Shown here in pieces: positions 34,092 through 35,408 of a stretch of 64,000 nucleotides of DNA. A model generated the notes under the pieces. The model saw nothing but the letters and a program-made list of their open reading frames with translations. It searched no databases and had not been told where the DNA came from. The position numbers and the translations under genes are program-made. Numbering within the stretch: position 1 is the first letter of the stretch; every line of letters starts with the position of its first letter. The DNA is from Salinibacterium hongtaonis (GTDB lineage: Bacteria; Actinomycetota; Actinomycetes; Actinomycetales; Microbacteriaceae): positions 2,232,001 through 2,296,000 of the forward strand of contig NZ_CP026951.1 in the NCBI RefSeq assembly GCF_003065485.1. The letters are read 5' to 3'.

Positions 34092-34186
34092 GTGTATTCC
34101 TTTCGGCAAAGTGTCCGCTATTTGACACTTAAGCGTTCGAACGGGTGGCTGGCCCGCCGGTAAATCTGTTGAGTTGTGGAAAGGCT

Positions 34187-34676: not shown

Positions 34677-35051
34677 CTATCGTGCCTTCTTCTTGCCGGC
34701 GACGGTGCGCTTCGGACCCTTGCGGGTGCGAGCGTTGGTCTTGGTGCGCTGACCGTGGACGGGCAGGCCGCGACGGTGACGGATGCCCTGGTAGCTTCCG
34801 ATCTCGACCTTGCGGCGGATGTCAGCGGCAACCTCACGGCGAAGGTCACCCTCAACCTTGTAGTTGCCCTCGATGTAGTCACGGAGCGCAACGAGCTGGT
34901 CGTCGGTGAGGTCCTTGACGCGGATGTTCACGTCGATGCCGGTGGCCTCAAGGGCCTGGAGCGACTTGGTACGGCCTACGCCGTAGATGTAAGTAAGTGC
35001 GACTTCAACGCGCTTGTCGCGCGGAATGTCTACGCCTGCTAGACGAGCCAT
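34677..35051 (-). CDS. rpsM: 30S ribosomal protein S13
   Basis: Head protein contacting P-site tRNA and the subunit bridge. From the ATG at 35051 it is 124 aa: [29 protein letters not shown], and the [20 protein letters not shown] region. The upstream open 20 codons fall in a structured leader and are rejected. Confidence 0.97.
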
Positions 35052-35084
35052 TGTGGCTTCTCCTGTTGAGTGAGTGGAGGTCTG

Positions 35085-35204
35085 GAGCAGCTCCTGTGCA
35101 TCGGCCTCCAACCGATGGTGTCCCCCGAAGGATCTGGGGCTGCTCTAGTGCGATATTCAGTTGATGAGTCGCAAGCGACTCGGTTGTTGGGCTGCATGCA
35201 GCCC
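35085..35204 (-). promoter_or_regulatory. Structured leader between rpmJ and rpsM
   Basis: Within 120 bases lie: GAGCAGC/GCTGCTC (35085-35091 with 35139-35145) enclosing the hairpin CATCGG/CCGATG (35099-35104, 35112-35117); GAGTCGC-AA-GCGACTC (35066-type arms at 35166-35181); and a perfect 16-base palindrome GGGCTGCATGCAGCCC (35189-35204). This density suggests a folded mRNA leader for rpsM-rpsK-rpoA. Confidence 0.55.
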
Positions 35205-35210
35205 CACCCA

Positions 35211-35356: not shown

Positions 35357-35408
35357 CCCTCGGAATGCCGAGGGCCGTTACTTTCCAGCTGAATGCCCGC
35401 GAGGGCAT
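35357..35408 (-). promoter_or_regulatory. Two hairpins between infA and rpmJ
   Basis: CCCTCGG-AATG-CCGAGGG (35357-35374) and ATGCCC-GCGA-GGGCAT (35393-35408) are perfect stem-loops in the 94-base gap. Confidence 0.5.

Follow-up and report, generated by a model that had tools for sequence, protein, structure and literature searches.

In Salinibacterium hongtaonis, the window analysed here (the whole stretch of 64,000 nt, from whose first letter all positions are counted) carries rpsM, the gene for ribosomal protein S13, separated from rpmJ by an intergenic region that holds a candidate RNA leader. Two hairpins, P2 and P3, lie inside a helix, P1, and the GGAGG of the P3 loop pairs with a CCUCC strand directly 3' of P1, giving the region the architecture of a pseudoknot (Table 1). 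The CCUCC strand lies 23 nt 5' of the rpsM start codon. Motif-bearing relatives have rpmJ-rpsM gaps of 117-280 nt, and in other families an additional hairpin, judged by eye, is found within the P1 junction.

Table 1. Features of the rpmJ-rpsM region, in window positions
Feature	Position	Strand	Basis or remark
rpmJ-rpsM intergenic region, leader-bearing	35052-35210	−	159 nt; from ORF positions
rpsM (S13), first gene 3' of the leader	34677-35051	−	
P1 5' strand, GAGCAGCCCC	35136-35145	−	covariation, Microbacteriaceae alignment
P1 3' strand, GGAGCUGCUC	35085-35094	−	MFE fold and covariation, Microbacteriaceae alignment
P2 hairpin, length variable	35121-35132	−	MFE folds and covariation
P3 5' strand, CAUCGG	35112-35117	−	covariation
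P3 3' strand, CCGAUG	35099-35104	−	MFE fold and covariation
P3 loop, pseudoknot 5' strand, UGGAGG	35105-35110	−	pairs with 35075-35080
Pseudoknot 3' strand, CCUCCA	35075-35080	−	family and class alignments, tree
Shine-Dalgarno, AGGAG	35060-35064	−	10 nt 3' of the pseudoknot
Conserved element 5' of P1, CAACUGAAUA	35154-35163	−	enrichment against shuffles
7-bp hairpin, GAGTCGC-TT-GCGACTC	35166-35181	−	sequence not conserved
16-base palindrome, GGGCTGCATGCAGCCC	35189-35204	−	sequence not conserved

A first-pass annotation had placed a palindrome, a 7-bp hairpin and a nested two-helix element between positions 35085 and 35204, and all are present there on the minus strand. The nested element is conserved, but the annotation missed the pseudoknot, whose partner strand (35075-35080) falls outside that interval. 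The palindrome and the hairpin do not hold up as fixed parts of the element: their exact sequences occur in 0 of 51 relatives, and three same-genus copies (L083, L085, L092) have neither a palindrome of at least 12 bases nor a perfect 7-bp hairpin in the 5' part of the gap. Base shuffles predict 1.2 relatives with such a palindrome or hairpin of other sequence there, but 13 of 49 have one, so that, despite the absence of exact copies, hairpins may be favoured in this part of the gap without a fixed sequence. One relative (L094) has an 18-base palindrome in the 5' part of its gap, which corresponds to about 35147-35210 in the window.

Folding energy alone is weak evidence for a leader. The interval 35085-35204 has a z score of −2.0 (8 of 200 shuffles are equally good) and 35025-35210 one of −1.7 (12 of 200), while the core, 35075-35148, lies near chance at −0.98 (36 of 200). 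A DNA search with the 159-nt gap matched 214 of 398 family genomes; among the alignments listed, most span query positions 84-159, the 76 nt adjoining rpsM (window 35127-35052).

Compensatory change in the helices and the knot

The family alignment comprises 52 Microbacteriaceae sequences and 26 proposed pairs. Across these pairs, 89.5% of cells are paired and 162 cells carry double changes, against 53.1 ± 6.3 in shuffles, a count that leans towards the structure since the pairs had been chosen from the fold of this genome's copy and by scanning the columns of that very alignment. Slid controls retain at most 27 double-change cells, and the covariation score is 0.334 against 0.127. P1 (5' strand in columns 22-31) is paired in 85.8% of cells with changes on both sides at 7 of its 10 pairs, P2 in 80.8% with such changes at 3 of 4, and P3 in 98.7% with such changes at 3 of 6; the knot helix is paired in 92.3%. 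G-U pairing fits the strand as read here: in P3, UG occurs 11 times at each of two pairs, where the opposite strand would have A-C. Locus by locus, P1 stands out weakly from shuffled upstream sequence, ranking at 0.05 or less in 7 of 51 Microbacteriaceae and in 28 of 116 other loci.

A class alignment was made with a model that held P3 only, the knot pairing being absent from it; the 59 loci used to build this model were ones where the pair finder had already found the knot. Its 100 sources, chosen from 175, yield 101 rows, including one weak second match in L169, and 100 distinct rows. In the distinct rows the knot helix is paired in 97.5% of 592 cells and shows 28 double-change cells, compared with 2.5 ± 1.4 in shuffles and at most 8 in slid controls. 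P3 is paired in 74.7% of cells; at two of its pairs, 54 and 55 rows lack pairing, which we read as a shift of register caused by loop length. On a count of 12 pairs there are 51 double-change cells, and the control slid by −1 still has 24, which we would ascribe to P3 being misaligned in roughly half of the rows.

The knot pairs were also followed on a protein tree of 98 of the 100 loci (midpoint rooting, one parsimony resolution). They undergo 38 changes: 18 are double and compensatory, a number that includes the doubtful rows L047 and L072, 4 are single and leave the bases paired, and 16 lead to or from an unpaired state. Variant strands change together, as GCAGG/CCUGC and GUAG/CUAC in Bifidobacterium, and as GAAGG/CCUUC and AGAGG/CCUCU. 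Judged from the alignments, conservation at the level of single bases extends to P1, P2, P3 and the CCUCC strand with its predicted pairing to the GGAGG of the P3 loop. The first-pass annotation had proposed that a structured leader precedes the rpsM operon and named a lack of compensatory changes in related genomes as the result that would speak against it; such changes appear in the family alignment, the class alignment and the tree. The region thereby has a structure backed by compensatory change, as expected of a ribosomal protein leader.

Distribution and distance from the start codon

Of 394 genomes from the class Actinomycetes searched with the model, at least 272 carry the motif, and a few of these match it twice. 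The genome of S. hongtaonis has a single strong match of 63.1 bits, the next scoring 18.5. Some of the 122 class genomes with no match are misses of the filter (G078 and G141 match by DNA). S13 lies 3' of the motif in all 29 of the best class-search loci (L151-L179) and in 40 of 40 further loci (L180-L219), and the motif abuts S13 in 12 of 12 genomes where both positions are listed, placing it, as expected of a ribosomal protein leader, in an untranslated region directly before a ribosomal protein gene. In a Blastococcus locus (L076), rpmJ abuts rpsM. Outside the class lie 22 of the 30 phylum loci; there the match to L36 starts 101-205 nt before S13, so most rpmJ-rpsM gaps are short, and the model, applied to 9 of the 22, matches only L126, weakly, at 15.7 and 15.5 bits. 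Ribosomal protein leaders are typically not widespread, according to the main text of PMC7247131. Mycobacterium and Mycolicibacterium are among the loci with the leader, which puts laboratory relatives at hand.

The geometry of the knot is flexible on one side and narrow on the other. The linker from P3 to the second knot strand ranges from 18 to 137 nt over 167 loci. From the pseudoknot to the start codon the spacing has a median of 23 nt and is 16-30 nt in 161 of 167 loci, a narrowness that would fit action on translation initiation. The pair finder demands pairing, so the 167 of 175 loci it reports are not an independent count, and it kept the second strand within a stretch ahead of the start codon. 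The spacing given above comes from a repeat in which the second strand was left unrestricted from P3 into the gene; the identical strand was chosen there in 164 of 167. The eight misses of the finder are L036, L041, L066, L071, L072, L076, L108 and L173, and the set excludes the 30 phylum loci along with L082, L143, L154, L155, L158 and L172. In an earlier run, 104 of 110 loci reached 28, as did 10% of 330 shuffles; that run contained evident wrong knots, for example in L017, L019, L020, L041, L066, L071, L076 and L099. Gene position, compensatory pairing, the narrow spacing to the start codon and the one strong genomic copy are directly supported.

One alternative is a switch in which the CCUCC strand sequesters the Shine-Dalgarno sequence and formation of the knot frees it. 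At least four Watson-Crick pairs with the Shine-Dalgarno region are possible in 106 of the 141 loci with a CCUCC strand, and in knot-free folds of several relatives CUCC pairs with GGAG. The variant strands tell against such a switch. Where the strand is not CCUCC, the P3 loop changes in step with it, but pairing of four or more with the Shine-Dalgarno region is found in only 1 of 21 rows, or 1 of 18 once the finder misplacements L005, L043 and L195 are removed (L017, L019, L020, L099 and L047 are excluded from these counts). Sequestration as a conserved state was therefore rejected and the switch as a whole is improbable; the drop from 106 of 141 loci to 1 of 21 variants makes the knot look like the state under selection. 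Intrinsic attenuation was rejected as well, as the rpmJ-rpsM gap contains no terminator-like site. In the neighbouring infA-rpmJ gap, a terminator-like hairpin, CCCTCGGAATGCCGAGGG, lies on the plus strand at 35357-35374; such sites are no commoner in the region than in shuffles.

The strands of the leader knot, as UGGAGGC and ACCUCCA, also stand a few bases apart in the genome's own 16S rRNA (L220). Imitation of the ligand's rRNA site is frequent among ribosomal protein leaders, though not universal. Matches between the leader and this 16S are of 7-8 letters only, and nine other leaders, each compared with the S. hongtaonis 16S only, give differing matches. Mimicry of 16S by the leader appears doubtful, given that leaders of other families, judged by their letters alone, carry CGGAGG and ACCUCCG.

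The adjacent element and the candidate ligands

Upstream of P1 lies the CAACUGAAUA element, described by the consensus AACTVAAYR (ACAACUSAAUA-like), and it opens another reading, that the leader acts on transcription or processing through a Nus-factor site (NusA boxC-like) or an RNase site with the structure beside it. The consensus occurs in 53 of 167 rpmJ-rpsM gaps, compared with 0.6 expected from shuffles, and in 25 of 89 rpsK-rpoA gaps, compared with 0.2. Similar letters are present in the rrn leader of the same genome, and hairpins of varied sequence are enriched 5' of the element. The other gap types have none: infA-rpmJ (128 gaps), rpsM-rpsK (147), rpsK-rpsD (63) and rpsD-rpoA (53). This reading is nonetheless unlikely: 114 of the 167 gaps of knot-bearing loci yielded no such element, and the spacing that is held narrow is that from the knot to the start codon. 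The rpsK-rpoA gap of the window contains a counterpart at 34167-34176, CAACUCAACA, which is like CAACUGAAUA and the rrn-leader letters. The CAACUGAAUA element presumably resembles the boxC RNA bound by M. tuberculosis NusA, as a putative site. The main text of PMC6614801 describes binding of NusA to boxC-like RNA.

The preferred reading places the knot under a ribosomal protein, and two sources of that protein have to be weighed. S4 could be the ligand as in E. coli, here supplied in trans from a separate gene. In E. coli, S4 regulates the alpha operon through a pseudoknot (main text of PMC10931766), and S4 is the presumed ligand of the rpsM leaders of Clostridia and Fusobacteriales (main text of PMC7247131). 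Gene order offers a partial match: rpsD follows rpsK within the operon in 74 motif-bearing loci, but it is absent there in 91 that retain the motif (two more loci are undetermined), and in two of these 91, L056 and L073, S4 is instead encoded some 1.45-1.5 kb 5' of rpsM. As the leader is kept both with and without an operon rpsD, S4 is not the obvious ligand.

The S. hongtaonis operon block is one of those from which rpsD is missing, as the first-pass annotation had observed; the S4 gene lies instead at G000:C1:1410259-1410882. The protein it encodes is the only full-length S4 of the genome and belongs to a type present as a second copy in several members of the class; an operon-type S4 was not found in this genome. 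Matches to this protein form two groups in 66 of 69 matched class genomes, with identities of about 47-75% and about 38-47%, and several class genomes hold both. In the loci examined, the S4 proteins encoded in the operon are only 40-44% identical to the S4 of S. hongtaonis. The motif was not found at rpsD in this genome, and it is present in 0 of 15 loci of the S. hongtaonis S4 type, the group of higher identity (L222-L236), where the best score is 10.7 bits. This evidence from S4 types is not decisive, since different types might yet recognise a common RNA site. Upstream of rpsD of the same type, in L224, L225, L226, L228, L229, L232, L233, L235 and L236, a TTAGGTTAGGCT-like sequence, which we take to be like a DtxR/IdeR iron box, can be seen by eye.

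S4, not favoured by gene linkage but favoured by precedent, is a credible candidate with less than an even chance, at about a third of the weight, and a protein encoded in the operon, S13 or S11, has about the same standing. A narrower proposal can be made only tentatively, namely that the leader is read by S13 or S11 of the shortened operon and not by S4, maybe jointly with the adjacent Nus-factor element. If this were true, the literature searched would hold no counterpart to such an autoregulator, retained in operons without rpsD and in a genome whose sole full-length S4 is of a divergent type and encoded elsewhere. A leader that occurs in most of the class genomes sampled, in operons with and without rpsD, provides a natural test of the protein responsible. 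For Bacilli, in which rpsD is also separate, control of the alpha-operon ribosomal protein genes is called unknown in the main text of a 2024 review (PMC10931766).

It is quite likely that the conserved pseudoknot is a cis-acting leader of the rpsM operon; its ligand and its control of translation we infer. The best reading is that it represents a new family of ribosomal protein leaders controlling translation of this operon, probably as a feedback switch for ribosome production. P1 would close a junction that holds both hairpins, with the P3 loop joining the strand 3' of P1 in an H-type pseudoknot. Excess ribosomal protein, most likely S13 or S11 made from the operon, or S4, would bind this knot, and the bound protein would block 30S loading and thereby lower translation of the operon.

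Comparison with known leaders

Across the window and 20 relatives, no Rfam 15 family reaches its gathering score at the leader site. An actinobacterial rpsM leader was not found in the literature searched (PMC10931766, PMC8470358, PMC2864571, PMC7247131, PMC6429828, PMC11109978, PMC6614801, PMC6009663, PMC10250234, PMC8388888, PMC3848588, PMC4679880), and the text of Table 1 in PMC7247131 includes none. The L17-Actino-Proteobacteria leader (RF03132) is a ribosomal protein leader of the same operon region in some Actinobacteria; 2 of 20 loci have it, but some 2.4-2.65 kb 3' of where rpsM starts and not before rpsM.

Other leaders share either the gene or the lineage. Eckert and Weinberg 2020 (PMC7247131) describe S4 leaders in Clostridia and Fusobacteriales that are likewise predicted and precede rpsM-rpsK-rpsD-rpoA-rplQ; they belong to other lineages and are compared here by their description in the text. 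The mycobacterial rpsO leader, a pseudoknot bound by S15, is also actinobacterial and lies upstream of the initiation site (main texts of PMC8470358 and PMC10931766), but it precedes a different gene and is likened to the rpsM leader by description only.

The remaining comparison is with the alpha operon ribosome binding site of E. coli (RF00140), which is bound by S4 and belongs to the same operon, also 5' of rpsM and with a pseudoknot near the translation start. The S. hongtaonis leader scores 18.1 bits with this family against a gathering score of 38. Identity with it was rejected, since the weak match is due to S13 codons and no match at E ≤ 10 is left when they are removed. The two knots also differ in what they cover: the E. 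coli knot takes in the ribosome binding site (main text of PMC10931766), whereas that of S. hongtaonis ends before the Shine-Dalgarno sequence.
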